Below, piece by piece: positions 9,606 through 52,272 of a DNA stretch of 64,000 nucleotides (the first letter of the stretch is position 1; every line of letters starts with the position of its first letter). The notes under the pieces were generated by a model that did no database searches, had not been told where the DNA came from, and saw only the letters and a list, made by a program, of their open reading frames with translations. The DNA lies in contig NZ_CP062163.1 of NCBI RefSeq assembly GCF_014844095.1, positions 5,117,501 to 5,181,500 of the forward strand. Direction: 5' to 3'. The stretch comes from Brevibacillus sp. JNUCC-41 (GTDB taxonomy: Bacteria; Bacillota; Bacilli; Bacillales; DSM-1321). A program made the translations under genes and the position numbers.

Positions 9606-9705
9606 CGGTTCGGAATATTTTCTCTTTTTTTTTAAAAAAACTAGATGAAAAAGACTAAGAAATTGATAACATAGAGAACATGATCGTACTAGCGGAGGAA
9701 CGAAA

Positions 9706-9980
9706 ATGGAATCAACGCTATAATCACAAAAGCGTTAAATGGATTCTCCGAGACCATCAAGTCCGTTATTCCTTTCTTTTTGGACATTTAAAAGCCGTAC
9801 CTCATAAAACAGCCTTTCGAACAGGAATCGATAAGCGTCCTTATTGACATGAAAGGGGATATCCGAGGGAGAATAATAAACAAATTAGATGAAAACATGT
9901 TTTGCATGCCGTTAGAAGGGGCCATTAAAGGCATAGGCACTCTTCCTATCATCGATCAAAATGTAATCATGAAATATTAA
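9706..9980 (+). pseudogene. Decayed CheX-like chemotaxis phosphatase gene
   Basis: An ATG with a good ribosome site (GGAGG, 5 bases upstream of CGAAA-ATG) opens a frame that stops after five codons. A second frame then carries protein-like text, I-N-A-I-I-T-K-A-L-N-G-F-S-E-T-I-K-S-V-I-P, to an in-frame TAA. The same frame continues past it with K-P-Y-L-I-K-Q-P-F-E-Q-E-S-I-S-V-L-I-D, then M-K-G-D-I-R-G-R-I-I. The tail is P-I-I-D-Q-N-V-I-M-K-Y. This order (short N-helix, S-V-x-I-x-x-x-G-D-x-x-G, final P-x-I-x-x-Q-N-V) matches the CheX fold, but about 40 codons of the middle are missing. At least one frameshift, one nonsense codon and one deletion are needed to explain it. The CheX identity is from motif memory. 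Confidence 0.5.
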
Positions 9981-38254: not shown

Positions 38255-39769
38255 TCAAACTTCAACATTAATGCCTTCATATGCATTTATCCACTTATCA
38301 TTTGTCCAGCCATGGAGGTCATAATCGTCCATGGCCAAGTCCACAAAAGCTTTGAATTTATTCGATTGTCCATTTAAATCTGCCATTTTCATGGTTTCAA
38401 GCCTAATATTTTCATGGTTACCCGCATAATTGATTTCATATAATTCATTCCTGCCACCAAATTCCGTGCCGATGGAATCCCATATGAGTTTCATCAGTTT
38501 TACCCTTTCCACTGCCGAAACCCCACCTGAACCCTTATAATATTTATCGAGATACGGACGGACCTCAGGGTTTAAAAAATCCTTGGAGCTTGATGGGAGT
38601 TGAATGAGATTACCTGCTACAACCTGTTCAAATATCTGTTTCACCTTTGGCCAAACCATTGGTGCGAACACCCTATATGCAGTTGCATATGTGCTATTGG
38701 GCAGAACAGTGCCATTCGGCCCTTCCATCGGATCTGTAGCCATCGCTGTCGAGATGGCCCAAAACATATTCCTGAAGGCAAGCACTTCCCCTATATTGGC
38801 TTGAACTCCCCTAAATTGATTCGTTCCTGCCATTTCCGTAGCTTTCATCAGAAGCCCAGCCATAAAGTCCAATTTCACCGCATAGCGTGTACAGCCATGA
38901 AATGTATATCGATTCATCCACCCAGTCTTGGATCTAAACCCATTTGCGATTTCCACATTATTATAGGCGAATACATTCTCCCATGGTACGAATACATGAT
39001 CAAGGACGATGACTGCGTCATTTTCGTCGAACCGGCTGGAAAGCGGGTAATCGAAAGGAGTGCCTGACTTGGCAGCCGTTTCTTCAAAAGACTGTCTGCT
39101 GATCATTTTTAATCCCGATGCATTCATCGGTACAAAGAAAATCAACGCATGGCTTCTATCTCCTTCCCCAAGATCGACAGGAGAATAATTCGCGACAAAA
39201 TTATAATTCGTAAGTGCTGCAGAAGTTCCAACCATTTTGGCTCCGCTTACGATTATCCCATCATCCCGCTCTTCCACCGTACGTACAAATACCTCTTTAT
39301 TTTCATGCAGCGGTTTATTCCTGTCCATTGCCGGATTTATAATTGTATGGTTACAGAAGGGAACGTCCCTTGTGGTTTTTTCATACCATCTTTTCGCATT
39401 ATCTTCAAATCCCTTATAAAAATCGCTATACGGTCCCAATGATCCTGTAAAAGCAGCTTTGTAATCAGGGGTACGCCCCATGAAACCATAGCTCAATTTT
39501 GACCATTGTGCTATCGCATCCCTTGCTTCAAGCAGCTCTGTTGCGTTCTTCGAGGCTTTGAAGAACTTATGGGTAGTATGACCTTCATCTGTCTTAGCAG
39601 TTAGAATCCGTGCAGTGACCGGATCATGGAGAGCATCATATAGTTGAGCAATCGATCTGGCAGAATTGCGATATGCTGGGTGCGTCGTCACATCATCTAC
39701 CTTATCTCCGTTCAAGAATACCGTTCTTCCATCTCGTAAACTTTCTAAATACTCTTTACCATTCATCAT
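38255..39769 (-). CDS. HpaB-family FAD-dependent aromatic monooxygenase, copy 1
   Basis: 504 aa. Two-component FADH2-using 4-hydroxyphenylacetate 3-monooxygenase/phenol hydroxylase family. The catalytic set seen in Thermus HpaB (R100, Y104, H142) is present as R99 and Y103 (G-R-T-P-D-Y) and H141 (N-H-T-I-I-N-P). GGGGG is 8 bases before the ATG at 39769, so the start at 39784 is rejected. It differs clearly from copy 2, so it may take another phenol substrate. It sits with the DmpR-like regulator on the minus strand and faces hpaG1, sharing the GntR-operator region. No HpaC reductase gene is nearby. Confidence 0.85.
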   Translation of the reverse strand: MMNGKEYLESLRDGRTVFLNGDKVDDVTTHPAYRNSARSIAQLYDALHDPVTARILTAKTDEGHTTHKFFKASKNATELLEARDAIAQWSKLSYGFMGRTPDYKAAFTGSLGPYSDFYKGFEDNAKRWYEKTTRDVPFCNHTIINPAMDRNKPLHENKEVFVRTVEERDDGIIVSGAKMVGTSAALTNYNFVANYSPVDLGEGDRSHALIFFVPMNASGLKMISRQSFEETAAKSGTPFDYPLSSRFDENDAVIVLDHVFVPWENVFAYNNVEIANGFRSKTGWMNRYTFHGCTRYAVKLDFMAGLLMKATEMAGTNQFRGVQANIGEVLAFRNMFWAISTAMATDPMEGPNGTVLPNSTYATAYRVFAPMVWPKVKQIFEQVVAGNLIQLPSSSKDFLNPEVRPYLDKYYKGSGGVSAVERVKLMKLIWDSIGTEFGGRNELYEINYAGNHENIRLETMKMADLNGQSNKFKAFVDLAMDDYDLHGWTNDKWINAYEGINVEV

Positions 39770-39905
39770 CGGAACATCCCCCATTCACAATCTTTTAATT
39801 TGAATTCCTAGCTTCATACTAACTAAATGTTCAAGGCATTTATCTGTTGAAACCCATACTTTTTCTAACATTTTTTGTCTATTCATACTGAATAATCTAA
39901 ATATG

Positions 39906-39946
39906 TTGAACTTATACAAAAAATCATATACGATATCATATATGAT
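39906..39946 (+). promoter_or_regulatory. hpaG1 promoter with two abutting GntR-type operators
   Basis: A -35 TTGAAC (39906-39911), 17 bp, and -10 TACGAT (39929-39934). Two 12-bp palindromes abut: ATCATATACGAT (39923-39934) and ATCATATATGAT (39935-39946). The first covers the -10. The same 12-mer pair lies in front of the gntR gene at 52.2 kb. The ribosome site AAGGGGTGA follows 12 bp later. Operator assignment is by inference from the matching sequence. Confidence 0.7.
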
Positions 39947-39973
39947 TGATAATAAAACAAGGGGTGAGTATCC

Positions 39974-40762
39974 ATGGCAAAAGCAAGAGTGAAATTCAAA
40001 AAGTCAGATTATTCAGAAGAAATGGAGATACAGTCGAGCCGCTATATTTTAATGAACGGTGATAAGTTGGAGGTATCACAAATCAACTTGGATAACCCTA
40101 TTTCAGGAACGGTATATGGAACATTATTAAACTATAAAGGGTCATTGGCAGCATTGAAGGAAAAGGTCGACCATCCTCCTTATAATGAACCTCCTAAAGG
40201 GCCGATCCTTTATATTAAACCTAGAAATACGTTTTCTTCCTTTTCAAATCCAGTTCCCCTTCCAAGCGGCATACCTGAATTGGAAATCGGGGCAGCACTT
40301 GGAATAGTAATCAGTAAAACGGCCACAAGAGTCAAGAAAGAACATGCATTGGATTATATAGAAGGTTTTACGATCGCCAATGATATTAGCATTCCGCATG
40401 AGAGCGTTTTCCGTCCTGCTATCCGCCATAAAGCCCGTGATGGATTTTGCCCGATCGGTCCATGGGTCGTAACCAAGGAATCCATCTCCAACCCCGATTC
40501 TTTAGGAATTCGTGTATATATAAATGGAGAGTTAAGACAGGAAAATTCAACTGCAAATCTAATTCGCTCCATATCCCGCCTTATTGAGGATGTAACTGAC
40601 TTCATGACTTTGAGTACGGGTGACGTCCTTCTAGTAGGTGTTCCAGAGAACGCACCGCTGGCAAAAGCCAATGATCATGTCAGAATAGAAATAGACGAAA
40701 TCGGATATTTGGAAAATACTATCATTCCCGAGGGGAAACTATCACTGGAGGGGATTTTATGA
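39974..40762 (+). CDS. hpaG1: HpaG1: FAH-family isomerase/decarboxylase, N-half homologue of HpcE
   Basis: 262 aa. It matches the N-terminal half of enterobacterial HpcE: L-N-Y-K-G-S...P-P-K-G-P-I-L-Y-I-K-P-R-N-T, E102-L-E104 and D138 (metal ligands of the FAH fold), and R-P-A-I-R-H-K-A-R-D-G-F-C-P-I-G. HpcE converts 5-oxopent-3-ene-1,2,5-tricarboxylate to 2-hydroxyhepta-2,4-diene-1,7-dioate (decarboxylation) in homoprotocatechuate breakdown. Here the two halves are separate genes. The TGA overlaps the hpaG2 ATG (ATGA). Confidence 0.92.
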   Translation: MAKARVKFKKSDYSEEMEIQSSRYILMNGDKLEVSQINLDNPISGTVYGTLLNYKGSLAALKEKVDHPPYNEPPKGPILYIKPRNTFSSFSNPVPLPSGIPELEIGAALGIVISKTATRVKKEHALDYIEGFTIANDISIPHESVFRPAIRHKARDGFCPIGPWVVTKESISNPDSLGIRVYINGELRQENSTANLIRSISRLIEDVTDFMTLSTGDVLLVGVPENAPLAKANDHVRIEIDEIGYLENTIIPEGKLSLEGIL

Positions 40763-41547
40763 AGAGAGCACGTGTAGCCTATGCAGGTGCCATACATCCA
40801 GCAAGTGAATATTATGGTCAGGTCCAATTGGCGGATGGCAGGATTGTCAATGAGCAGGATGTTGTCTGGCTTCCCCCGGTGGAGCCACGAACTGTTTTCG
40901 CGCTTGGCTTGAATTATGCAGACCATGCGAAGGAGCTTGCTTTTAAAGCACCGGAAGAACCCCTTGCGTTCTTAAAAGGTCCCAATACCTTCATCGGCCA
41001 CCGGGGACAGACAAGACGGCCTGCTGATGCAGCTTATATGCATTATGAATGTGAACTTGCAGTCGTCATAGGTAAAAAGGCGAAGAACATAAAAAAGGAA
41101 GAAGCCTTTAAGTATGTAAGTGGATATACGATTGCAAATGATTATGCAATACGAGATTATCTGGAGAATTACTACCGACCTAACCTAAAAGTCAAAAATC
41201 GCGATACATGCACCCCCATTGGGCCATGGCTTGTCGATGCCGAAGATATCCCAGATCCTTCGAATCTTGCCATCAAAACTTACGTCAACGGAAAATTGAC
41301 TCAGCAAGGCAACACGAAAGACATGATTTTCGGCATTGCTGAGTTAATTGAATATTTTAGCAGCTTCATGACATTGAGCCCAGGGGATATCATATTGACA
41401 GGAACACCTGAAGGATTGGCGGATACTGCTGTAGGCGATGAAATCATCACTGAAATTGAAGGGATCGGGAAACTCGTCAACACAATAGTCGGTGACGATA
41501 TATTTACTGAAGGCGGGGATCGGCCGCATCTAAAAATCCATAATTAA
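40759..41547 (+). CDS. hpaG2: HpaG2: FAH-family isomerase/decarboxylase, C-half homologue of HpcE
   Basis: 262 aa, equal to the C-terminal half of HpcE: A-L-G-L-N-Y-A-D-H-A-K-E-L, M-H-Y-E97-C-E99 and D128 as the metal ligands, and Y-L-E-N-Y-Y-R-P-N-L-K-V-K-N-R-D. It belongs to the same step as HpaG1; in split systems the two subunits are thought to form one complex. Start overlaps hpaG1 by 4 bp, so equal synthesis is likely. Confidence 0.92.
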   Translation: MKRARVAYAGAIHPASEYYGQVQLADGRIVNEQDVVWLPPVEPRTVFALGLNYADHAKELAFKAPEEPLAFLKGPNTFIGHRGQTRRPADAAYMHYECELAVVIGKKAKNIKKEEAFKYVSGYTIANDYAIRDYLENYYRPNLKVKNRDTCTPIGPWLVDAEDIPDPSNLAIKTYVNGKLTQQGNTKDMIFGIAELIEYFSSFMTLSPGDIILTGTPEGLADTAVGDEIITEIEGIGKLVNTIVGDDIFTEGGDRPHLKIHN

Positions 41548-41564
41548 CGGAAGGGACTGATAAC

Positions 41565-41951
41565 ATGCCTCATATCATTATTGAATATACAGATAATATC
41601 AAAGATGAAATCCAGATTGACGGCTTATTAAGGAAGGTGAATGATGTACTGATATCCTATCCCTCCATCTTTCCAATTGGCGGCATTCGATCCCGGGCCA
41701 TTGAATTGAAGCATTATCGTGTTGCCGATGGTACAGAGGATGATGCCTTTGTTCATGCCATTCTAAAAATTGGCGCTGGACGCAAAGACAGTGATAAAAC
41801 CGAAGTATGTGACCAACTTTTCGAAACGATGGAAACCCATTTGGCTTCCCTCTTTTCAAAAAGATATCTTGCCCTCTCCATGGAACTTACGGAATTCAGT
41901 GATTCTGGAACATATAAGAAGAATAATATCCATGATCGATATAATAAATGA
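41565..41951 (+). CDS. hpaF: 5-carboxymethyl-2-hydroxymuconate isomerase HpaF
   Basis: 128 aa. M-P-H-I-I-I-E-Y-T-D-N-I gives the N-terminal catalytic Pro (after Met removal) of the tautomerase-like CHMI; G-G-I-R-S-R-A, Y-R-V-A-D-G, D-A-F-V-H-A-I-L-K-I-G-A-G-R and K-K-N-N-I-H match E. coli HpcD. It isomerises 5-carboxymethyl-2-hydroxymuconate before the HpaG step. AAGGGACTGATAAC-ATG is its ribosome site. Last gene of the rightward operon hpaG1-hpaG2-hpaF. Confidence 0.93.
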   Translation: MPHIIIEYTDNIKDEIQIDGLLRKVNDVLISYPSIFPIGGIRSRAIELKHYRVADGTEDDAFVHAILKIGAGRKDSDKTEVCDQLFETMETHLASLFSKRYLALSMELTEFSDSGTYKKNNIHDRYNK

Positions 41952-41964
41952 ACTAGATTTCATA

Positions 41965-42001
41965 TTGAAAGGCCTTCCTCATCATCGGGAAGGCCTTTCA
42001 A
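41965..42001. terminator. Bidirectional terminator between hpaF and hpaB2
   Basis: A long stem, TTGAAAGGCCTTCC with GGAAGGCCTTTCAA (14 bp, 9-nt loop), ends hpaF and the convergent hpaB2. Confidence 0.9.
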
Positions 42002-42029
42002 TTAAAATGTTTTGCCAATGCTACCAGGC

Positions 42030-43502
42030 TCAGTTGATTTCTGCAAGGTTTTCAGTACGGTTCAAGAACTCCTTGACACGGTCCACATATTCCTGTTTAT
42101 CATAGCCGTTATATAATGCGCTCGCCATACGGACCGGATCCCCAAAAAAGAACCTTTCGTATAGCGTTTGCCTGGATCCAAATGAACTCATGCATACATC
42201 CCATGCGAGACGATACAATTTAACCCTGTCATAGGCTCCACCATTCGCGGCTTGAAGATATTTATCCAAATCAGGTCGAAGCTCCGAATTGAAATCGGCT
42301 TCATTTGGTATCGCCATTAAGCCGCTAGCTCCAAGAAGCTGCATGATTTCACTGAATCTAGGGTAAATCTTCGGGTAATAATTACGGGCTATATTTAACG
42401 GTGTAAAATCGGGTGTCATCATTCCCCACTTATCCACTTTCGCGTTTGCCTCCGAAGCTGTAATGAAAGCCTTTACCGTTTCAAGCGCTATGATGACTTC
42501 CGAAATTTTTTCCTGAACATGCTGGTATTGCCCGATATTGATGGTTTCCGCCATTAGTTGCAAAATCCCCAGAATGAACTCGGTTTTGGCGATATTCTTC
42601 GCTACCACCTGATGGGTCATATGAACAACTGCATTGCTTTCATTATAAGCCTGGTTGCAAATGCCGACATCCCCATATGCAAATACACGATTCCAAGGAA
42701 CTACTACATCATCAAAAACGATAATCGTATCCATTTCCTCAAATCTTGAACCAAGAGGATGGTCAAAATGTGATTTGCCATAGTCGAATGATTCACGACA
42801 GATGAATTTCAACCCTGGTGTATTATTTGGAATGGAGAATGCGAATGCATAAGGGTTTTCTTCTTCGGATTGTTTAAGCAATGTTGAAGGGAAAACCATG
42901 ATTTCATCCGTTATTCCTCCTTGTGTAGCTAATAACCTGGCTCCCTTTATAATAAGCCCTTCTGAATTCTTGCCAGCAATCCTTGCAGCGATGTAAGGGT
43001 CCGGAAGCTTTGCGGCACTAACTCCCCTATTAACCTGGGGTTGAATCAAGGTATGTGTCAACGACAAATCCTTTTCCCTGCAGAGTTCATAATAATCTTT
43101 CATATTTTTAGCAAATGCCGAATCCTGAGTGCCGAACATATCAGCTGCGGTGCCGTACGCCATCATCCCACTGTTGATATAGTCAGGGGAACGTCCCATC
43201 ATTCCATTATTATGCCTTGCCCATTCCTGAATCATTTTCCTCCTTTTTTCAAGGTCCCCCTTTGTCCGCGGCTGCATGAATGAGGTCCCTACTCTTTCGT
43301 TTGAAGTTGGTGAAATATAAGTCATGATGTCAGTTTTCGCGGAATCATGCTGCAAATCATATAATTCGGCCTGTGATTTCATTACCCCTTTAAAAGCTGG
43401 GTGTTGACTGATTTTATCTTTTACTTGCTCTCCATTGATCCATACATTCGCCTTTGCTTTATCTACCCTATCGATATACTCTTTACCCGTTTTAGCTGGC
43501 AT
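42030..43502 (-). CDS. hpaB: 4-hydroxyphenylacetate 3-monooxygenase HpaB, copy 2
   Basis: 490 aa. The motif G-M-M-G-R104-S-P-D-Y108 and H150 (L-T-H-T-L-I-Q-P-Q-V-N-R) are the catalytic Arg, Tyr and His of HpaB; this copy has the canonical R-S-P-D-Y and P-Q-V-N-R and resembles B. subtilis YoaI and Thermus HpaB. It hydroxylates 4-hydroxyphenylacetate to homoprotocatechuate with O2 and reduced FAD from a separate reductase. AAGGGGG lies 8-9 bases before the ATG. It is divergent from the lysR gene, the usual target arrangement. Confidence 0.9.
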   Translation of the reverse strand: MPAKTGKEYIDRVDKAKANVWINGEQVKDKISQHPAFKGVMKSQAELYDLQHDSAKTDIMTYISPTSNERVGTSFMQPRTKGDLEKRRKMIQEWARHNNGMMGRSPDYINSGMMAYGTAADMFGTQDSAFAKNMKDYYELCREKDLSLTHTLIQPQVNRGVSAAKLPDPYIAARIAGKNSEGLIIKGARLLATQGGITDEIMVFPSTLLKQSEEENPYAFAFSIPNNTPGLKFICRESFDYGKSHFDHPLGSRFEEMDTIIVFDDVVVPWNRVFAYGDVGICNQAYNESNAVVHMTHQVVAKNIAKTEFILGILQLMAETINIGQYQHVQEKISEVIIALETVKAFITASEANAKVDKWGMMTPDFTPLNIARNYYPKIYPRFSEIMQLLGASGLMAIPNEADFNSELRPDLDKYLQAANGGAYDRVKLYRLAWDVCMSSFGSRQTLYERFFFGDPVRMASALYNGYDKQEYVDRVKEFLNRTENLAEIN

Positions 43503-43666
43503 TCTTCATCCCCCTTTAGTATCAATATAAATAAAACGCTTACAATTAAATAAATTCCAAAAATTGAATTAATTCCTATAACAAAATATACCATATGTTA
43601 AGATATATATATAATACTTAAAAAATTCAATATGTATATGTAAATCATATGTATGAGGTGTATATA
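43503..43666. promoter_or_regulatory. Divergent hpaB2/lysR promoter region
   Basis: 164 bp between divergent starts. It holds symmetric AT-rich text such as ATATGTATATGTAAATCATATGTAT (43628-43652), a LysR-type box candidate. A degenerate cre (TTGTAAGCGTTTTAT, minus strand of 43531-43545, two mismatches) lies 29-43 bp before the hpaB2 start. Confidence 0.4.
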
Positions 43667-44536
43667 ATGGACATCCGGCAATTAAAGTATTTTGTGACGA
43701 TCGTTCAGGAAGAACAAATAACCAAAGCAGCAAAAAAATTGCATATGGCTCAACCCCCCCTTAGCCAGCAACTTAAATTAATGGAAATGGAAATCGGTGA
43801 AAAACTCTTCGACCGGAATGGAAAGAAACTTGAACTCACTGAAACTGGCAAGGTCCTATATAAAAAAGCAGAAGCTCTATTAAACCAGTTTGAAGAATCA
43901 CTACTGGAAGTGAAGGAAGTCAGTAAAGGGATACAGGGCACTCTTTCCATAGGGTCAGTAAAAACTTGCTTTTCTTACATTCCTCAAAGGATGATGGCCT
44001 TTAGAGTAAAATACCCTGACATACGTTTCAAGTTAATGGAAGGTGATACATTCCGTTTGACAGAAGGCTTAATAAACAGGGAAATCGAGTTGGCCATTGT
44101 ACGGCTTCCCATTAACGGTAAGCGATTCTCATCGATTAACCTTCCGCCGGAAGATTTTGTGCTTGTCACCCCAAAAGAATGGGACATCCCAGACTCCATC
44201 GAATTTAAACAAATTAAGGATTATCCCCTCCTATTGCTGCATAGGGTAAGCGGACAGGGAACTTATGAACTTATAGTGGATGAGTGTCTAAGACATGGGT
44301 TTGAACCTAAGATTGTATGTGAATGTCCTGATGCTGCCATGATTTTATCTTTGGTGAAGGAAGGAATAGGCGCTACCCTCATGCCACGAACCACATCCAA
44401 ATCGTTTTCAACCCAGGGTATTAAAATAATCGAATTGATAGATTGTGAAGTACAATCGGAAGCCGCCCTTATTTGGCTCGAAGAACGCTATCTTTCCAAA
44501 GGTGCCGTCAAATTTCTAGAAACATTTTCTGAATGA
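43667..44536 (+). CDS. LysR-family transcriptional regulator
   Basis: 289 aa. N-terminal winged HTH M-D-I-R-Q-L-K-Y-F-V-T-I-V, with Q-I-T-K-A-A-K-K-L-H-M-A-Q-P-P-L-S-Q-Q and a standard LysR effector-binding domain. Start is the ATG at 43667: GAGGTG is 6 bases upstream, whereas the frame to 43649 starts within that site. It probably controls hpaB2 and, perhaps, itself. The ligand is not known; an aromatic acid is the natural guess. Confidence 0.9.
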   Translation: MDIRQLKYFVTIVQEEQITKAAKKLHMAQPPLSQQLKLMEMEIGEKLFDRNGKKLELTETGKVLYKKAEALLNQFEESLLEVKEVSKGIQGTLSIGSVKTCFSYIPQRMMAFRVKYPDIRFKLMEGDTFRLTEGLINREIELAIVRLPINGKRFSSINLPPEDFVLVTPKEWDIPDSIEFKQIKDYPLLLLHRVSGQGTYELIVDECLRHGFEPKIVCECPDAAMILSLVKEGIGATLMPRTTSKSFSTQGIKIIELIDCEVQSEAALIWLEERYLSKGAVKFLETFSE

Positions 44537-44717
44537 ATGGACAGTTATCCTTGAATATTAGTGCATCTGTACCTCTTTCTAATAATCTTTCGTGTTTGTT
44601 TGAATTTCATTATCCAATGAAAAGGAAAAAGCAACCTATCATTAGATGGCTGCTTTATCAGATCCCATTCATAAGTGCGTGACCTGTGTTTTATTTATAG
44701 GCATTCTTTTACTTCAT

Positions 44718-46283
44718 TCAATGTCCCAAAACACCCTTAACATCATGACCGGTGTTGGACTTAACGAGGATTTCATTATAATTGTCTTTTGTAACCGTTT
44801 TCAAACCCGTCCTGCGGTTACCGAACAGGGCACCTAAATAGCATGCGAGGAACCCAAGCGGAATGGAAACGATCCCTGGTGAATTCAAAGGGAAAATAGG
44901 GTCACCTGTCATTATGGTGGCTCCGGGGACCGGGTTCCAGACATTTGGACTTAGAAACACGAGCAAAAGCGTACCAATAAGACCTGTCATCATACCGACT
45001 ATCGCTCCGGTTTTATTGAATTTTTTCCAATAGATCGTAAGAAGGATTACCGGCAAATTCGAACTAGCCGCCAGTGTAAAGGCAATCGATGCCAGAAACG
45101 CTACATTGAATTCCTGCAGACCTAATGATAAAACGATTGCAAGTGCAGTCACACCAACGGAAGCCCATCTAGCCATCGTCATTTGCTGTTTTTCCGTCGC
45201 CTTTCCATCTTTTAATATTTCATTATAAAAATCATGTGAAAAGGCCGTGGCTCCTGTTAAAACGATTCCCGCAACAACTGCGAGTATCGTTGCAAAGGAA
45301 ACGGCAGCAATAAATGCGAATAAGATGTCCCCGCCCACAAGTTGGGCCAATAAAGGTGCAGCCATATTACCAGCTGGATTAGCGGCCATGATATTCGATG
45401 TTCCAACCAACTTCGCAGCACCGAATCCGAGAAAAATGACCATGATATGAAAAGCACCCATAATCCACATCACCCAAACAACCGATTTTCTTGCCACTCG
45501 TGCATTCGGGACAGTCAAAAAACGTATTAAAATGTGAGGTAGACCTGCCGTTCCCAGAATTAGGCCCAGCGATAAGGAAGCTGCATCCCACCCACTGGCA
45601 TATTTAATACCTGCTTTCAGGTAATCTGCACCCATGGGTGTTGCGGTTTTCATATCAGTGAAAATTCCGATGAAACTAAAATTCAATTTCCACATGACGA
45701 TCATGAATAATATAAACACTCCTCCTATCAACAGGATGGCTTTAATGATCTGCACCCAGCTCGTCGCCGTCATCCCCCCAAATAGAACAAATACCAACAT
45801 GACAATACCTACGATGATGACAGAAATATTATACGGGATGTCTAAAAGCAACTTAAATAAAGCACCTGCCGCAACAAGTTGCCCCAGCATGTACATGACT
45901 GATATCACCAGGGTATTAAAGGCGGTCACTCCCCTGACCTGTTTATATTTAAACCTTGTAGTCACCATATCAGCCAATGTGTATTTCCCCAAGTTCCTTA
46001 AAGGTTCAGCCACTAGGAATAACACGACAAGAAATGAAACAAGTGCTCCATACATCAGGAAAAATCCATCATACCCCGTTAAGGAAAATGCCCCAATCAA
46101 CCCCAAAAACGTGGAAGCCGACATAAAATCCCCGGCCAATGCAAGTCCATTTTGCCTAGCGGTCAACCCTCCACCAGCCGTATAAAAAGAGCCTGCCGTT
46201 TTAGTTTTTTTGGAAGCGAAATATGTGATGAAAAGGGTTCCTATCGACATTAGCGCAAAGAGAATAATAACTGTCCAATTCAT
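44718..46283 (-). CDS. Sodium:solute symporter (SSS family, ActP-like)
   Basis: 521 aa with 13 probable membrane helices. The SSS signature near the N-terminus is F-Y-T-A-G-G-G-L-T-A-R-Q-N-G-L-A-L-A-G-D-F; S-A-S-T-F-L-G and G-L-P-H-I-L-I-R-F also match acetate permease ActP. Its partner DUF485 protein is 3 bp upstream, the same pair as yjcH-actP in E. coli. Placed at the end of the island, it may import 4-hydroxyphenylacetate or a related acid instead of acetate. Confidence 0.9.
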   Translation of the reverse strand: MNWTVIILFALMSIGTLFITYFASKKTKTAGSFYTAGGGLTARQNGLALAGDFMSASTFLGLIGAFSLTGYDGFFLMYGALVSFLVVLFLVAEPLRNLGKYTLADMVTTRFKYKQVRGVTAFNTLVISVMYMLGQLVAAGALFKLLLDIPYNISVIIVGIVMLVFVLFGGMTATSWVQIIKAILLIGGVFILFMIVMWKLNFSFIGIFTDMKTATPMGADYLKAGIKYASGWDAASLSLGLILGTAGLPHILIRFLTVPNARVARKSVVWVMWIMGAFHIMVIFLGFGAAKLVGTSNIMAANPAGNMAAPLLAQLVGGDILFAFIAAVSFATILAVVAGIVLTGATAFSHDFYNEILKDGKATEKQQMTMARWASVGVTALAIVLSLGLQEFNVAFLASIAFTLAASSNLPVILLTIYWKKFNKTGAIVGMMTGLIGTLLLVFLSPNVWNPVPGATIMTGDPIFPLNSPGIVSIPLGFLACYLGALFGNRRTGLKTVTKDNYNEILVKSNTGHDVKGVLGH

Positions 46284-46286
46284 GAT

Positions 46287-46625
46287 TCAAAGCCCTTCTT
46301 TCTCGATGATTTCTTTTATTTGTTCATCGATTCTTTCTGATTTCCTTACATATATGCTGCAAACCCAAACAGACATAACCGTAATGGAAACACCGTACAC
46401 CCATGCCCAGGTTATGTCTCCAATGAAAGAGTGATCCAGGATATCTGTGTAAAAAACTAAGAAGGGCAAAAGCAGGGAATATCCCATAAAGAAAATCGTA
46501 AAAGGGATGACGAATTTCTTTTTATCGGAAAGCATAATCTGAAACTCTTTGGAGGCAACAATCTTTTCATAATCCACTAGATTAGTTTGTTCCGATTCAT
46601 CAAGGTTTTTTTCCAACCGAACCAT
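46287..46625 (-). CDS. DUF485 membrane protein (YjcH-like symporter partner)
   Basis: 112 aa with two membrane segments (F-V-I-P-F-T-I-F-F-M-G-Y-S-L-L-L-P and the second W-V-Y-G-V-S-I-T-V-M-S-V-W). DUF485 proteins are always next to SSS symporters of the ActP group and probably help them. GAGGTG lies 9 bases before the ATG. It ends 3 bp before the symporter gene. Confidence 0.88.
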   Translation of the reverse strand: MVRLEKNLDESEQTNLVDYEKIVASKEFQIMLSDKKKFVIPFTIFFMGYSLLLPFLVFYTDILDHSFIGDITWAWVYGVSITVMSVWVCSIYVRKSERIDEQIKEIIEKEGL

Positions 46626-46804
46626 CTCTATACACCTCTTCTGATATTTATTTTTACAAGGACGGCATTATTAGTATTGAGCCTCTCCAATATCAGCCGC
46701 TTTCTTCCCTCCACCCCAAAATCCAAACAAACTCATCTGCACTGAGAGGGTCTAAGCCCATTCCCTAAGCTTTCCGAACTCCCATTGTCTAACCGTGACG
46801 CTTA

Positions 46805-46840
46805 CAGGTAGGGCAGCAGTAAGTACCCACTGCTACCCTG
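46805..46840 (-). other. Stem-loop between the FAD-synthetase-like gene and DUF485
   Basis: CAGGTAGGGCAGCAGT pairs with ACTGCTACCCTG over about 10 bp with one mismatch; no clear T-run on either strand. It lies 18 bp past the upstream gene stop, so it may slow or partly end transcription, or stabilise the mRNA end. Confidence 0.45.
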
Positions 46841-46857
46841 TCCCAGACCATATCTTT

Positions 46858-47739
46858 TTAGAAGGCTTGCACTTTCGTAATAGACTTGGCTCGCATATCC
46901 GTCATCTGTTTCGGCTTCATTATACTTTCACTTTTCCATTTGATATGAATCTTCTTTCCCTCCAAGGGAAGATCATCATTGAAAAGTAAGTGCCAACTCC
47001 CATGAAAGGATCCGTCCGTTGTTTGATAGGCAATTCCCTCATAAACATTTCCTTCGTTCTGGATTTCGATTAAGTAAGCGCCTGGCGGGGGTGTCAGGAA
47101 TGTTTCCGATAATGTAACGGTGACGTGTTGATTTTCCTTGGAAATGATGGTACCTTGGCTTTCAAAGTATGTGCCCAGGAATGGCGGGATATCTGCGAAC
47201 CGACCTTCTGCAATCAAGTTTCTAAGCTTAGTGGAACTTACTTTTTCATGATCGATTTCAAACTTCTTCATTTCCGTCACTTCAAAAAATCGCTTACCTT
47301 CGATTTTCAGCGTTTCCATATTCCCTTCCCCTTTATGTCCATAGCGGAAATCGAATCCAGCCACGGCATGCTTGCATTTAAATCCACATAAATAATCCTC
47401 GATAAAGCCCGTAGGTGAAAGATGGGCAAATGCAGAATCGAAGTTCACGACTATCAAGGTTTCTACACCTAAACCTTGCATGATTTTTGCTTTTTGCTCT
47501 AAAGGAGTCATATATGTTTGGGGTTGAGCGTTTCCTAAGATTTGATTTGGATGCGGAAAAAATGTCATGACTGCCAATTTCAAATCTTGCTGTATGGCAA
47601 TCCTTTTAGCTAGATGTATCAGTTCTTGATGGCCAAGATGAACTCCGTCGAAAAATCCAAGAGCCAGCACACACGGTTCTGCTACTGCCGTATATACACC
47701 GGAAATTGGGTGCTGAACATGAATGATATCCAAATCCAT
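46858..47739 (-). CDS. FAD-synthetase-like protein (RibF N-domain) of the island
   Basis: 293 aa. The nucleotidyltransferase domain has G-F-F-D-G-V-H-L-G-H-Q (28-38), the HxGH-type site for FMN adenylylation, and S-S-T-K-L-R-N-L-I near 165. The C-terminal part where bifunctional RibF has riboflavin kinase lacks the G-F-P-T-A-N motif and looks degenerate (L-T-P-P-P-G-A-Y-L-I-E-I only), so kinase activity is unlikely. It could provide FAD for the two monooxygenases. Spacing: 157 bp after hpaD and 232 bp before DUF485, same strand. Confidence 0.75.
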   Translation of the reverse strand: MDLDIIHVQHPISGVYTAVAEPCVLALGFFDGVHLGHQELIHLAKRIAIQQDLKLAVMTFFPHPNQILGNAQPQTYMTPLEQKAKIMQGLGVETLIVVNFDSAFAHLSPTGFIEDYLCGFKCKHAVAGFDFRYGHKGEGNMETLKIEGKRFFEVTEMKKFEIDHEKVSSTKLRNLIAEGRFADIPPFLGTYFESQGTIISKENQHVTVTLSETFLTPPPGAYLIEIQNEGNVYEGIAYQTTDGSFHGSWHLLFNDDLPLEGKKIHIKWKSESIMKPKQMTDMRAKSITKVQAF

Positions 47740-47896
47740 CCTCCTTCCTTTGATTCTTGAAAGGTTACATTATAAACTCAGTAAACGGACCTTCGATAAT
47801 CCAGAAGTTTCCATCAACCATTCACCAGTTCTGTTCCCTTAAACAGGCTTATACGCACTAGCGCCCTATCCAATTGACCGTGGGTCCCGTTTCTCT

Positions 47897-48880
47897 TTAG
47901 ATGATGAATTCAGGCTTGCTTTTTGCCAGAATCGGTTCTTTAAGAGGAACTTCTTCACCTGATATTATATCAAGTACAGCAGATGCCTCATCAAACCATG
48001 AATCCGGAGCTTTGGCTCCCCAGAATGTCTGGCGTCTTGGATCATTCAAATCCCAATGAATCGGTTCGGTATCAGGGTCAGCCGTTAAGTAATCACCATT
48101 GTATAATTCGATCCTATGACCGTCCGGATCTCTTAAATATAAGAAGAATGCATTGGATAGACCGTGCCTTCCTGGTCCGCGTTCGATGGACTGGGCATAT
48201 CCCAGTGAAGCCAGTACATCACAGGCATGGATAAGTGCAAGGGGGTCAGGCAGAAAGAAGCCAACATGATGAAGTCTTGGACCGATTCCGTTCATGAATG
48301 CCTGGTCATGGACCGTTTGCTTTCTATGAAGCCACGTCGCCCATAATTTGCCCGAATCATCCACTGTGTCTTCCGAGCACGCAAAACCTAATTCTTTCAC
48401 GTAAAAATCATAGGCATTTTGTACATTTGGTACACAGCAATTCACATGATCGATCCTTTGGACCCTTGAACCCCTATGCATATCGTATCGTTGAAGCAAT
48501 CTCTCGGCTTTATCCATTTTGCTGAAAAACTCCACTGGCAATCCTGAAATATCCTGAACTCGTAGCGACTTGCCTAGTGCATGCTGTGTTCCTTCCTGCA
48601 TCCACTTCATTTTCATTCCCTTGGATAGGAAAAAAGATTCCAATTCTTCAAGGTCTTCCTCTTTTTCAACCTTGTATCCTATTGCTTCAACGCTTGGCTT
48701 TTCTGCCTTTTGCAAAATAAGCGAGTGATGATGCGCTTCCTCTAAACCACGTAAATATATGTGATCATTCGTTCTTTCCGTTTCAATGAAACCTAAAGCA
48801 TCCACATAAAAGGCTCTTGATTTATCCAGATCTGTTACATTAAGTATCGTTCTCGCAACACGAATAATAGAAAAACTCAT
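47897..48880 (-). CDS. hpaD: 3,4-dihydroxyphenylacetate 2,3-dioxygenase HpaD (type I extradiol)
   Basis: 327 aa. Two vicinal-oxygen-chelate repeats; ligands His145 (I-D-H-V-N), His204 or 205 (L-H-H-V-G-F) and Glu258 (H-R-I-E-L-Y) match the 2-His-1-Glu site of Brevibacterium/Arthrobacter homoprotocatechuate dioxygenase (H155, H214, E267). It opens homoprotocatechuate to 5-carboxymethyl-2-hydroxymuconic semialdehyde. Iron or manganese cannot be told. Start 48880 follows GAAGGGGAGAATACT; the frame to 48937 is rejected. It is 31 bp after hpaE. Confidence 0.95.
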   Translation of the reverse strand: MSFSIIRVARTILNVTDLDKSRAFYVDALGFIETERTNDHIYLRGLEEAHHHSLILQKAEKPSVEAIGYKVEKEEDLEELESFFLSKGMKMKWMQEGTQHALGKSLRVQDISGLPVEFFSKMDKAERLLQRYDMHRGSRVQRIDHVNCCVPNVQNAYDFYVKELGFACSEDTVDDSGKLWATWLHRKQTVHDQAFMNGIGPRLHHVGFFLPDPLALIHACDVLASLGYAQSIERGPGRHGLSNAFFLYLRDPDGHRIELYNGDYLTADPDTEPIHWDLNDPRRQTFWGAKAPDSWFDEASAVLDIISGEEVPLKEPILAKSKPEFII

Positions 48881-48911
48881 AGTATTCTCCCCTTCTTTAA
48901 TGAAACACGGA

Positions 48912-50426
48912 TTATTTTTCAGCAGAAGAAACAGCATTTTGTTTTACGTCGCCAAATTTCGGAATGTGATGTTCACCAATTGCTACGTGGATAACTTGTG
49001 TTTCCGTATAGAATTCAAAGCTATAATGGCCACCTTCACGTCCTACCCCACTATATTTCGATCCTCCAAACGGGATTCGCAAATCCCTTACGTTTTGGGA
49101 ATTCACCCAGACCATCCCGCTATCGACAGCCTGTGCAAACCTATGTCCACGTTTCATATCATTGGTCCATACATAAGCAGCAAGCCCATACTTTACATCG
49201 TTAGCCATTCTCAGTACCTCCTCTTCAGTCTTGAAAGGAATGACTGCCATGACTGGTCCAAAAATCTCTTCCTGTGCCACCGTCATCTCATTTGTACAGT
49301 TCAAGAGAAGCGTCGGGGCAATAAAATTCCCTTCCTTGAACGCACTCGGTATGGCACCGCTTACAATTTCCGCCCCTTCATCTTTTGCTATATCCAGATA
49401 ACGGGAGACATTATTAAAATGGTTACGATGGATCAGCGGTCCGATTTCCGTTTCTGGGTCCATTGGGTTTCCAATTTTGATATTATGAACACGTTCCTTC
49501 AATTCTGCAACGAACTGGTCTATTATCGATTCATGGACAAATAATCTGGAATTGGCTGTGCAGCGTTCCCCATTGAATGAATAAATTCCCCAAACCACAG
49601 AATCCAGGGCTTTTTCTAAATCGGCATCTTCAAAAATGACCGCTGGCGATTTACCTCCGAGTTCCATGGAAAAACGTTTCATTGTATCCGCACCATTTTT
49701 AACGATTTCAGCGCCAGTCGTCGTTTCCCCGGTAAAGGATATCAATTGGACTTCAGGATGGGCAACCAAGGACGCCCCTGCTGTTTCCCCAAAACCGTGA
49801 ACGATATTGAATACGCCTTTCGGCAGACCGGATTGGTCAATGATTTGTGCCAATTTATTGGCAGTCAATGGGGACCACTCCGCCGGTTTTAGGACACATG
49901 TATTACCTGTAGCCAGGGCCGGGGCGATCTTCCAGGTTTCTAACATGAATGGCGCATTCCAAGGAGTGATTAATCCTGCCACTCCTATCGGTTTATGAAT
50001 CGTATAATTGATGAATGTGTCATCCACTTGATACGACTCTCCTATTAGCCTGCTTTTCACCATCTCAGAATAAAACCGGAAATTCTCCGCTCCCCTTGCC
50101 GCCTGTTTTTTTGTCTGGCTAATCGGCAACCCTGTATCAAGGGATTCCAAAAAGGAAATTTCTTCTGCATTTTCTTCAATTAAATCAGCAATCCTATTAA
50201 TGTACTTCAATCTTTCTTCCACTTTCATCGTTCTCCATGGACCATTATCGAATGCATCTCTTGCAGCGGCTACCGCTTGATCGATGTCCTCTTTAAACCC
50301 TTCTGCCACATTATTTATTGCTTGATTATTAAAAGGGCTTAAATTTCCAAATGTTTTCCCTGAGATTCCATCGACAAATTGACCATTGATGTAATGCTTG
50401 ACATCTTGCACGGGAAAAGTTTGCAT
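48912..50426 (-). CDS. hpaE: 5-carboxymethyl-2-hydroxymuconate semialdehyde dehydrogenase HpaE
   Basis: 504 aa aldehyde dehydrogenase. Catalytic Cys289 (N-G-E-R-C-T) and Glu255 (M-E-L-G-G-K-S) are in place, with F-T-G-E-T-T-T-G for NAD binding and P-W-N-A-P-F at the active site entry. It oxidises the ring-cleavage semialdehyde to 5-carboxymethyl-2-hydroxymuconate. AAAGGAGGATTTATC-ATG fixes the start at 50426. Follows the dapA-like gene after a gap of 78 bp holding a stem-loop. Confidence 0.94.
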   Translation of the reverse strand: MQTFPVQDVKHYINGQFVDGISGKTFGNLSPFNNQAINNVAEGFKEDIDQAVAAARDAFDNGPWRTMKVEERLKYINRIADLIEENAEEISFLESLDTGLPISQTKKQAARGAENFRFYSEMVKSRLIGESYQVDDTFINYTIHKPIGVAGLITPWNAPFMLETWKIAPALATGNTCVLKPAEWSPLTANKLAQIIDQSGLPKGVFNIVHGFGETAGASLVAHPEVQLISFTGETTTGAEIVKNGADTMKRFSMELGGKSPAVIFEDADLEKALDSVVWGIYSFNGERCTANSRLFVHESIIDQFVAELKERVHNIKIGNPMDPETEIGPLIHRNHFNNVSRYLDIAKDEGAEIVSGAIPSAFKEGNFIAPTLLLNCTNEMTVAQEEIFGPVMAVIPFKTEEEVLRMANDVKYGLAAYVWTNDMKRGHRFAQAVDSGMVWVNSQNVRDLRIPFGGSKYSGVGREGGHYSFEFYTETQVIHVAIGEHHIPKFGDVKQNAVSSAEK

Positions 50427-50451
50427 GATAAATCCTCCTTTAAAAATTAAT

Positions 50452-50496
50452 TCGGGAAGATGACAAAAATCTATTAGATTCGTGCAATCTTCCCGA
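50452..50496 (-). other. Intercistronic stem-loop between the dapA-like gene and hpaE
   Basis: TCGGGAAGAT and ATCTTCCCGA are perfect 10-bp complements around a 25-nt loop, itself with a small AATCTATTAGATT hairpin, followed on the minus strand by AATTAATTTTT. It could partly end transcription, or set different mRNA levels for the aldolase and HpaE. Confidence 0.5.
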
Positions 50497-50504
50497 TCTA
50501 GCAA

Positions 50505-51422
50505 TTATGACTGGATTATTTGGTCAATCAACCCGTATGATTGAAGAGTTTCACGCAGTTCTTTTTCCAATGGTTCCGAAGGCGGACCCATTGGCGGCCT
50601 TAATGCAGGATTGATTTTCCCCATCATCCCCATCGCAGCTTTTAATGGTCCTGGATTGGTTTCTTTAAACAAAACATCATTCAATGGCATTAATTTGTAA
50701 TGGAGATCAAGTGCCTTATCCACATCCCCCTCCACCCAAAGGTTATAAATTTCCGCAACTTCTTTAGGGGTGATATTTGCAGTAGCACTTATATGTCCAG
50801 CACCTCCAATAGCCAACATTGGATAGCATAGTAATTCGATGCCCGAATATAAGAGAAAATCCCTTCCGCAATTCAATAAGACACGGTTCACATGTTCGAA
50901 ATCTTTATTAGATTCCTTTACACCAATAATATTTTCACAATCTTCAGCAAGACGTGCCAATGTCTTCACTTCTAGATTCGTCGCCGTTCTTCCAGGAATG
51001 TTATAAACGATAATCGGGATATCAACAGAATCGGCTACCGTTTTAAAATGATTGTAAAGTGCCTGTTGATTCGGTTTATTGTAATAAGGAACGATGACTA
51101 AAGCAGCATCCGCACCCATTTCCTGTGCCATTTTTGTCAAATGCAACGTTTCTTTCTGATTGGCAGATCCAGTACCTGGTGCAACTGGAACACGGGCTTT
51201 TGCTGCTTTAATAGCCGTTTCCATCACTAATTCCCGTTCCTTAATCGTTAATGAACTCGGCTCTCCGGTAGTACCGCATACCGAGATTCCATGGGAACCG
51301 CTTTCAATGTGCCAGTTTACCAGATTTTCAATTGCTTTTACATCCACTTCCATCTTGTCATCAAACGGAGTGATAACGGGAGCGATGGATCCTCTTAAAC
51401 GACTTTTGATTTCCTCGTACAT
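50505..51422 (-). CDS. DapA-family aldolase of the homoprotocatechuate pathway
   Basis: 305 aa. TIM-barrel class I lyase of the DHDPS/NAL family: C-G-T-T-G-E-P (Thr51-Thr52), Y140 and R145 in Y-N-I-P-G-R-T, Schiff-base Lys169 in G-V-K-E-S. The genomic DapA for lysine is expected elsewhere (next to asd/dapG), so this is likely the enzyme that cleaves 2,4-dihydroxyhept-2-ene-1,7-dioate to pyruvate and succinate semialdehyde, replacing HpaI. Start 51422 follows AAAGGGTGG, 7 bases upstream; the frame to 51467 is rejected. It may also do the missing hydration (see findings). Confidence 0.85.
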   Translation of the reverse strand: MYEEIKSRLRGSIAPVITPFDDKMEVDVKAIENLVNWHIESGSHGISVCGTTGEPSSLTIKERELVMETAIKAAKARVPVAPGTGSANQKETLHLTKMAQEMGADAALVIVPYYNKPNQQALYNHFKTVADSVDIPIIVYNIPGRTATNLEVKTLARLAEDCENIIGVKESNKDFEHVNRVLLNCGRDFLLYSGIELLCYPMLAIGGAGHISATANITPKEVAEIYNLWVEGDVDKALDLHYKLMPLNDVLFKETNPGPLKAAMGMMGKINPALRPPMGPPSEPLEKELRETLQSYGLIDQIIQS

Positions 51423-51470
51423 TTTTTCTACCACCCTTTCATTATTTGAATATTCGGAATAATACAAGTG

Positions 51471-51524
51471 AAAAAAATGGCTTTGCTTTTATGAATAATC
51501 GATTGACTATTATAAAACAAAGCC
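51471..51524 (-). terminator. Terminator between gntR and the dapA-like gene
   Basis: GGCTTTGTTTTATA pairs with TAAAAGCAAAGCC on the minus strand, followed by ATTTTTTTC (51471-51478). It should stop most transcripts from the gntR promoter and allow some read-through to dapA-hpaE-hpaD, since no good promoter is seen between. Confidence 0.7.
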
Positions 51525-51531
51525 AAGGTCA

Positions 51532-52209
51532 TCAAAGTGCCTGATCGTGATTAGTTTCCGCCCTCTGCTTGAATGTGCTGATGGCATTCAGTTTATGCTT
51601 TCTCACCAATGATTCAATTTCTTCAAAAGATGCTTTTTCCTTTAGAAGCTTTATGATGCTTTCATGTTCGCGAATCGATTGGACTGCACGTTGCGGAACC
51701 ATGGTGAACATGGATTTTCTGACTCTATTCATTCTTTGTTGTGCCTGTTTGATTTCCTCCTTTAAAAAGGAATTTCCGCACTTTTCATAGATTTCCGCAT
51801 GGAAACATTCGTTTAACTTACCAAACAGCTCTAATTCAAAGTTATGGAGGGCTTTTTCCATTTCTTTGTTTAAATTAATTAGATTTTCAAAATCATGATC
51901 ATTCATCGTTAAAGAACTGAGGGCAGCTGCATATCCTTCAAGCAAAGATAAAACAGAAAGAGTTTCAATGTATTCGCTCTCATTAATGCTTGTAACCACC
52001 GCTCCGCTATAAGGCTTATATTGAATAAGACCATCAGATTCCAGTTGCCTGATCGCTTCCCTGACAGGAATCGGACTTAAACTAAGTTCTTTTGCCGTTT
52101 GATCGATAATGATCCGCTGTCCAGAACCATATGTTCCATCCAAAATTAATTTACGAAGGTGCTCATATGCTATTTGCTTTTTGCTGGGGTTTTTGTTTTT
52201 CTCTTCCAT
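51532..52209 (-). CDS. GntR-family (FCD subfamily) transcriptional regulator
   Basis: 225 aa. N-terminal winged HTH, Y-E-H-L-R-K-L-I-L-D-G-T-Y-G-S-G-Q-R-I and S-P-I-P-V-R-E-A-I-R-Q-L-E-S-D-G-L-I, and an all-helical FCD ligand domain with H136-type positions (F-H-A-E-I-Y) and R-E-H-E-S-I. The gene lies under three 12-bp palindromes, so it likely represses itself; the same palindromes at hpaG1 suggest it controls the catabolic operons. The effector is unknown; a pathway acid is likely. Confidence 0.9.
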   Translation of the reverse strand: MEEKNKNPSKKQIAYEHLRKLILDGTYGSGQRIIIDQTAKELSLSPIPVREAIRQLESDGLIQYKPYSGAVVTSINESEYIETLSVLSLLEGYAAALSSLTMNDHDFENLINLNKEMEKALHNFELELFGKLNECFHAEIYEKCGNSFLKEEIKQAQQRMNRVRKSMFTMVPQRAVQSIREHESIIKLLKEKASFEEIESLVRKHKLNAISTFKQRAETNHDQAL

Positions 52210-52215
52210 ATTTTC

Positions 52216-52272
52216 ATCATATATGAAATCATATATGATTGCAATCGATTTTTATTAAAAATCATATATGAT
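52216..52272 (-). promoter_or_regulatory. gntR promoter with three palindromic operators
   Basis: Palindromes ATCATATATGAA (52216-52227), ATCATATATGAT (52228-52239, abutting the first) and ATCATATATGAT (52261-52272). On the minus strand, TTGTAA - 18 bp - TATGAT gives a -35/-10 pair whose -10 is inside the outer operator. All lie within 63 bp of the gntR start. The abutting pair repeats the layout in front of hpaG1. Confidence 0.75.

Follow-up and report, generated by a model that had tools for sequence, protein, structure and literature searches.

The 64,000-nucleotide (nt) window analysed here (positions 5,117,501 to 5,181,500 of contig NZ_CP062163.1, Brevibacillus sp. JNUCC-41) carries an island for aromatic acid breakdown and, within it, a gene for a regulator of the GntR/FCD type, gntR. 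Palindromes built on the 12-mer ATCATATATGAT stand at the promoter of gntR and again at that of hpaG1, and with a probability that we put at roughly 0.85 they are the binding sites by which this one regulator represses its own gene and the hpa genes. It is furthermore likely, judging from related loci, that the regulator is Bacillales-wide and kept leaderless by selection, with its ATG pinned 6-7 nt from a -10 element embedded in an operator, and with operator units phased near helical turns (mainly 12 and 31-34 bp apart, also 22-26 and 42-45 bp). What is new is probably a conserved, self-repressing GntR/FCD gene, leaderless, whose promoter is built of its own operators. An earlier, sequence-only reading of the window had linked the two promoters through their shared palindromes; that finding is real, and stronger than it was stated.

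Paired palindromes at two promoters

All five units lie where the sequence-only reading had placed them, with the mismatches it had given (Table 1). The exact 12-mer occurs three times in the whole genome, a chromosome of 5,490,698 bases (5.49 Mb) of the Peribacillus group, and all three copies are at these two promoters, with one match for the reversed control. The 24-base abutting pair, allowing up to three mismatches, is found twice in the genome, both times here, and its reversed control not at all. Among 43 genomes of the family, 20 with gntR at E 1e-30 or better and 23 without, single exact copies are background: 15 of the 23 genomes lacking gntR hold one to three of them, 25 in total, and single 12-mers were rejected as evidence on that ground. 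The count of sites with up to two mismatches in the window is likewise unremarkable (11 found against 7.3 expected, with 14 of 100 shuffles reaching 11). The case rests on the pairing, position and conservation of the sites.

The gntR promoter, TTGCAA-17-TATGAT, is identical in all 20 gntR-bearing family genomes; the core unit fills its spacer and the second unit supplies the -10. At hpaG1, the first unit contains the -10, as had been proposed, in a promoter TTGAA(C/T)-17-TACGAT that is kept in 20/20, and the second unit lies over the predicted start. The proposal that the last site, 52261-52272, forms the gntR -10 did not hold up, since the -35 that would accompany it is not conserved: it matches at four or more of six positions in only 7 of the 20 relatives, against an identical proximal promoter in all of them. 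The distal site was rejected as the main gntR promoter for this reason, and because a spacing of 31-34 bp recurs elsewhere, it is probably best read as an auxiliary operator.

The hpaB2-like gene, divergent from hpaG1 and a possible further target, has a minus-strand promoter-like match that overlaps the hpaG1 pair (1 found against 1.6 expected). In 9 of the 20 relatives, no hpaB2-like gene lies beside hpaG1 in the fetched stretch, which on the hpaB2 side spans only ~0.7 kb in three of them (L059, L060 and L064), and all nine keep the pair. Presence was judged here by adjacency to hpaG1; the match count, inflated by cross-hits to hpaB1, was not used.

A side observation concerns the palindrome-breaking C in the first hpaG1 copy (ATCATATACGAT, 39923-39934). 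Because this base is kept in all 20 relatives, the asymmetry of the copy looks selected, perhaps for tuning the -10.

Table 1. Features of the regulator gene, its candidate operators and the surrounding island, in window coordinates.
Feature	Position	Strand	Remarks
Core operator ATCATATATGAT, in gntR promoter spacer just past -35	52228-52239	-	Exact; same position in 20/20 Peribacillus-group loci (19 exact, 1 with one change)
Abutting second palindrome, TTCATATATGAT on gene strand (ATCATATATGAA forward, 1 mismatch)	52216-52227	-	Holds gntR -10 TATGAT (52216-52221); unchanged in 19/20, one further change in 1/20
Auxiliary operator ATCATATATGAT, 33 bp (~three helical turns) upstream of core operator	52261-52272	-	Exact; among 20 loci 18 exact, 2 with one change
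gntR -35 TTGCAA, 17-bp spacer to TATGAT	52239-52244	-	Identical in 20/20
Six nt between gntR -10 and ATG	52210-52215	-	Predicted +1 is the A of the ATG at 52209 (putative leaderless mRNA)
hpaG1 operator copy 1, ATCATATACGAT (1 mismatch)	39923-39934	+	Last six bases (39929-39934) are predicted -10 TACGAT; identical in 20/20
hpaG1 operator copy 2, exact ATCATATATGAT	39935-39946	+	Over predicted transcription start; exact in 18/20
hpaG1 -35 TTGAAC	39906-39911	+	TTGAA kept in 20/20; too weak for consensus promoter scan
gntR, GntR/FCD regulator, predicted autorepressor, 225 aa	51532-52209	-	Pfam GntR 44.0 bits (cutoff 27), FCD 65.4 bits (cutoff 24.3)
hpaI-like aldolase, putative target operon	50505-51467 (longest open reading frame, ORF; likely start ATG 51422, strong ribosome-binding site)	-	TIGR02313 469.3 bits
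hpaE, 5-carboxymethyl-2-hydroxymuconate semialdehyde (CHMS) dehydrogenase, putative target operon	48912-50504 (longest ORF; likely start ATG 50426)	-	TIGR02299 782.6 bits
hpaD, 3,4-dihydroxyphenylacetate 2,3-dioxygenase, putative target operon	47897-48937 (longest ORF; likely start ATG 48880)	-	TIGR02295 446.7 bits
hpaG1, FAA-hydrolase family, putative target operon	39974-40762	+	Leadered, clear ribosome-binding site
hpaG2, FAA-hydrolase family, putative target operon	40759-41547	+	
5-carboxymethyl-2-hydroxymuconate isomerase (hpaF-like), putative target operon	41565-41951	+	Pfam CHMI
LysR protein gene	43649-44536		Inside island
V4R/XylR_N-PucR protein gene	36225-38084		Inside island
hpaB2-like gene, divergent from hpaG1	38255-39784		Called hpaB1 in the sequence-only reading

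Conservation of the sites with the regulator gene

The 20 gntR-bearing family genomes, the window's own included, all belong to one genus. Every one of them keeps the hpaG1 pair and, at -63, -30 and -18 from the gntR ATG, the three sites of that promoter, with 0-2 changes per unit, and a genome-wide search for the pair returned exactly two in each of the 20. In the 23 genomes without gntR, a single pair was found, in one genome (G001).

The same association appears in the order, for which 397 genomes were searched; a gntR relative at E 1e-35 or better is present in 52 of these. The pair occurs in 26 of the 52 gntR-bearing genomes and in 0 of the 345 without the gene, against 2 of 397 for the reversed control (Fisher 1e-26, a value that ignores relatedness and is too optimistic). 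The 26 pair-bearing genomes span 15 genera, and in 22 of them a pair lies inside the fetched hpa stretch. In both sets, then, the pair tracks gntR, which bears out the suggestion that one regulator serves both sites.

In the 56 distant loci, sites with up to one mismatch are concentrated upstream of genes: the upstream regions of the queried island genes (up to 250 bp each, 40.8 kb in all) hold 95, the coding sequence of these genes (372 kb) holds 0 and the other 516 kb hold 15, while the reversed 12-mer gives 0, 1 and 4, respectively. At least one such site is present in 50 of the 56. The sites furthermore track the hpa genes through operon rearrangement, being found across the order upstream of hpaI, hpaE, hpaD, hpaB1 and hpaG1.

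Spacing was measured between sites up to 60 bp apart in 59 loci, with one count per distinct fragment (n = 58). The two peaks are at 12 bp (17/58) and 31-34 bp (19/58); minor spacings are 22-26 bp (7), 42-45 bp (8), 7 bp and 16 bp (2 each), and 47, 55 and 59 bp (1 each). Of the 12 fragments at 33 bp, 8 come from the L115 group and 3 from Peribacillus, so that the counts overstate the number of independent cases. The main spacings are near whole helical turns, and would fit dimers stacked on one face of the DNA.

The gntR product itself combines a GntR winged helix with an FCD domain, both above their Pfam cutoffs, the combination by which membership of the FadR subfamily is recognized. Its best NCBIfam match, TIGR03338, reaches 69.6 bits, far below the cutoff of 271.5, and the protein fits no named NCBIfam subfamily; the MarR family is not among its Pfam matches (E up to 0.001). 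In 75 aligned proteins, helix-turn-helix (HTH) residues S45, I47, P48, R50 and E51 are invariant, as expected with a constant operator. FCD residues N133, H137, H182 and H205 are invariant in the same 75. The metal site of FCD domains consists of D/N plus three His, and some FCD proteins have a metal-assisted pocket for small acids, with which the invariant residues appear compatible. A shared operator at the regulator's own and its target promoters, conserved along with the regulator gene, is the arrangement that would be expected of an autoregulated catabolic repressor, and it is present here. The uniqueness, conservation and co-occurrence of the sites tie the GntR/FCD gene to the operator shared by its own promoter and hpaG1, as the sequence-only reading had suggested; its protein is the best candidate for the binder, and the assignment is about as firm as sequence alone permits.

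A predicted leaderless start

At gntR, TATGAT is followed by six bases and then by ATG; the expected transcription start is therefore the A of the ATG itself, and the mRNA appears to be leaderless, with no Shine-Dalgarno sequence, a layout that the sequence-only reading had overlooked. For gntR, in the window and in 19 near relatives alike, the duplex with the anti-Shine-Dalgarno has an energy of -1.8 kcal/mol; the values for hpaG1 in the same loci are -10.3 to -12.5 kcal/mol. Eight other island genes range from -9.5 to -15.2 kcal/mol (lysR being taken at its second ATG, 43667), and the hpaB2-like gene has -4.5. The genes after gntR have ribosome-binding sites at their likely starts, with energies of -13.0 (hpaI), -12.0 (hpaE) and -9.3 kcal/mol (hpaD).

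For a wider comparison, 91 gntR loci were fetched, tblastn matches of 130 bits or less being left out. Of these, 16 (L090-L100 and L103-L107) repeated other stretches and were counted once; adding the window and the second copies in L078 and L114 makes 78 distinct loci. L131 was kept among them although its 8-kb contig has no other island gene, and it may not be an ortholog. Promoters of distant loci were picked by similarity to a 29-base consensus that excludes the start codon. An in-frame ATG stands 6 nt (54 loci) or 7 nt (15 loci) past the -10 position in 69 of the 78, and at least one member of 25 of the 32 clusters formed at 80% protein identity has this layout. The energies at these starts, +2.7 to -4.9 kcal/mol, are those of genes without a Shine-Dalgarno sequence. 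Across 70 layout loci (L071 included, its stop being disregarded for this purpose), the distance from the ATG to the HTH takes eight values between 36 and 84 nt, with 57 nt in 42 loci. The six spacer bases are of low information content (0.1-1.2 bits per column, 39 distinct sequences). Since both the distance and the spacer bases vary, the start codon follows the promoter and not the protein.

The pattern TTG-N20-TATNAT-N6-ATG is rare in the host genome, though not unique to gntR, with 6 matches against 2 for the reversed control. The five other places (L142-L146) may themselves be leaderless genes.

Competing explanations, setting and known systems

In the mechanism that we infer from these patterns, GntR/FCD dimers would bind ATCATATATGAT units separated by 12 bp, one helical turn, and by 33 bp, roughly three turns. 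The gntR promoter would be occupied at the unit in its spacer, at the abutting unit over the -10 and at the auxiliary unit upstream of the -35, and the hpaG1 promoter at the pair that overlies the -10 and the start site. The sites cover spacer, -10 and start, which fits steric exclusion of RNA polymerase by the bound regulator. The targets so repressed, rather than activated, would be gntR-hpaI-hpaE-hpaD and hpaG1-hpaG2-hpaF, the ring-cleavage half of 4-hydroxyphenylacetate breakdown. The inducer is probably an acid of the pathway: homoprotocatechuate, 4-hydroxyphenylacetate or a cleavage product, lodged in the FCD domain, would release the regulator. A gntR message lacking a ribosome-binding site would be translated at a low level, and the downstream genes, with sites of their own, would be well made.

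A different course for transcription of gntR is suggested by the distal hexamers TTGTAA-18-TATGAT (52290-52261), the promoter of the sequence-only reading, which score the same as the proximal promoter in the window (9/12 each); a leader of ~45 nt would then carry the pair as an RNA hairpin. We consider this unlikely, given the poor conservation of its -35 described above. The ~45-nt leader would also be without a Shine-Dalgarno sequence, and in several distant loci (e.g., L070, L071 and L085) the proximal cassette stands without a second site (up to two mismatches) ~33 bp upstream. If +1 is at the ATG, moreover, the pair at gntR is untranscribed, and the hairpin is disfavoured on that count. 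Activation by GntR through the distal site, with the pair serving feedback, is a shade less probable again. The distal site has its centre upstream of the -35, a frequent place for activators, and the 31-34 bp spacing is conserved, but the gntR core site occupies the promoter spacer, and at hpaG1 the -10 and start lie under the pair; in 19 of 20 loci, the 300 bp upstream contain no other site (up to two mismatches).

Binding by the LysR or the V4R/XylR_N-PucR protein has in its favour that both genes lie inside the island and that both families often control aromatic breakdown. Neither gene is present in the fetched stretch of 35 of the 56 distant loci and 6 of the 20 Peribacillus-group loci, though either could lie elsewhere in those genomes; of these loci, 31/35 and 6/6, respectively, keep sites. 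Since the order-set pairs, too, occur only in genomes with gntR, the two proteins are disfavoured as binders, and we regard their involvement as decidedly improbable. About one exact 12-mer would be expected in each genome, which is the most that speaks for chance AT-rich palindromes or inherited flanking similarity; the uniqueness of the pair, the upstream enrichment and the reversed controls strongly oppose it, and at L069 the flanks diverge while all sites remain, leaving this explanation with next to no credibility.

Several findings weigh against repression by gntR from these sites, or against its leaderless start. Half of the gntR-bearing order genomes (26 of 52) are without a pair at this stringency. 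Of the order-set pair matches, seven fall outside the fetched hpa stretches: four are remote (G133 C1, G282 C2 and C68, and G350 C34), and G058, G145 and G311 each have one close to the edge. All pairs of G133 and G282 are far from hpa, and those of G145 and G311 lie just past the fetched stretch. A site with up to one mismatch was not found in 6 of the 56 distant loci (L118, L122, L131, L135, L139 and L141). Operators over a promoter, furthermore, suggest repression without proving it. As for the start, 9 of the 78 gntR loci do not show the 6-7 nt layout, among them the ambiguous cases L135 and L136, and no promoter cassette was found in L123 and L131. The L115 group (11 loci) has lost the second palindrome, and its -10 is weak. 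In L071, a stop (TAG) soon follows the +1 ATG, and a strong Shine-Dalgarno sequence precedes a second ATG; the downstream ATG of L070 has such a sequence too, making the start there ambiguous. Finally, L072, L073 and the second copies in L078 and L114 combine a related promoter with a leader that bears a Shine-Dalgarno sequence.

These four leadered copies are natural counterparts of the leaderless ones. In L071 (~9664-9730), the +1 ATG opens a short frame that ends before the second ATG, possibly a leader mini-gene.

The island as a whole encodes 4-hydroxyphenylacetate/homoprotocatechuate breakdown, with hpaI, hpaE, hpaD, two HpaB-like oxygenases, the isomerase and two FAA-hydrolase-family genes to which we give the names hpaG1 and hpaG2. 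The minus-strand run gntR-hpaI-hpaE-hpaD begins with gntR, and the plus-strand run consists of hpaG1, hpaG2 and the isomerase gene. Genes 97-99% identical to gntR occur in records under the names Peribacillus frigoritolerans and P. simplex. The regulator at 36225-38084, which adjoins the second HpaB-like gene, has XylR_N and V4R as its sensor domains, joined to a PucR-type output (GGDEF-like and HTH_30). Beside hpaD, a RibF-like gene with an FAD synthetase domain (46858-47739; Pfam FAD_syn), present in 9 of the 20 Peribacillus-group loci, may supply flavin for the HpaB oxygenases.

Among the matches listed in a literature search of titles and abstract openings, no paper dealt with this regulator or operator; subscription papers and regulon databases were outside its scope, and an earlier prediction is possible. 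The string ATCATATATGAT occurs in no paper of the literature searched. On our analysis, the breakdown of hydroxyphenylacetate by soil bacilli would be given a regulator, an operator and two target operons; the operator array could serve as a part in an aromatic-acid sensor. If the reading is true, a single palindromic cassette sets both autorepression and low translation of the repressor, without a ribosome-binding site, in a group that has few leaderless mRNAs. In the available text of a survey of 953 bacterial genomes, leaderless genes are given for 56 of 209 Firmicutes, mostly Lactobacillales and Mycoplasma (PMC3160421). Mapped transcriptomes of Bacillales, so far as their available text goes, report almost none: no leaderless mRNA in Bacillus methanolicus, where all leaders have at least 2 nt and six are under 10 nt (PMC4342826), and two cases in Paenibacillus riograndensis (PMC5670726). 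In B. licheniformis, 30 of 1433 leaders are shorter than 11 nt (PMC3871023). Against that background, gntR is a conserved and directly testable candidate for leaderless translation.

The predicted circuit has several relatives of different kinds. The GntR/FCD repressors of carbon catabolism (PF00392 with PF07729) have the same domain make-up as the gntR product, and carry palindromic operators at their own and target promoters. In enterobacterial hpa clusters, the same pathway is repressed by HpaR, a protein of the unrelated MarR family. The cI gene of phage lambda and tetR of Tn1721 are self-regulated. Both are leaderless repressor genes, as gntR appears to be, but the proteins and circuits are unrelated; they are named as earlier examples in the available text of a study of acuR-acuI-dddL in Rhodobacter sphaeroides (PMC3017554). 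There, acuR heads its operon; it is leaderless, repressed by its own product and less translated than the genes that follow it (PMC3017554). Within the available text, this is the closest known case, a repressor gene at the head of a catabolic operon with the operator over the promoter. The two share an mRNA start at the ATG (predicted here), a repressor gene without a Shine-Dalgarno sequence followed by genes that have one, and a layout common to related lineages (PMC3017554). They differ in that acuR is proteobacterial and has one inverted repeat in place of a phased array, and in that its start, repression and inducer were shown by experiment (PMC3017554), whereas those of gntR are predicted. 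AcuR, moreover, belongs to the TetR family and the present regulator to GntR/FCD; the latter would work like the AcuR type without being a member of it.

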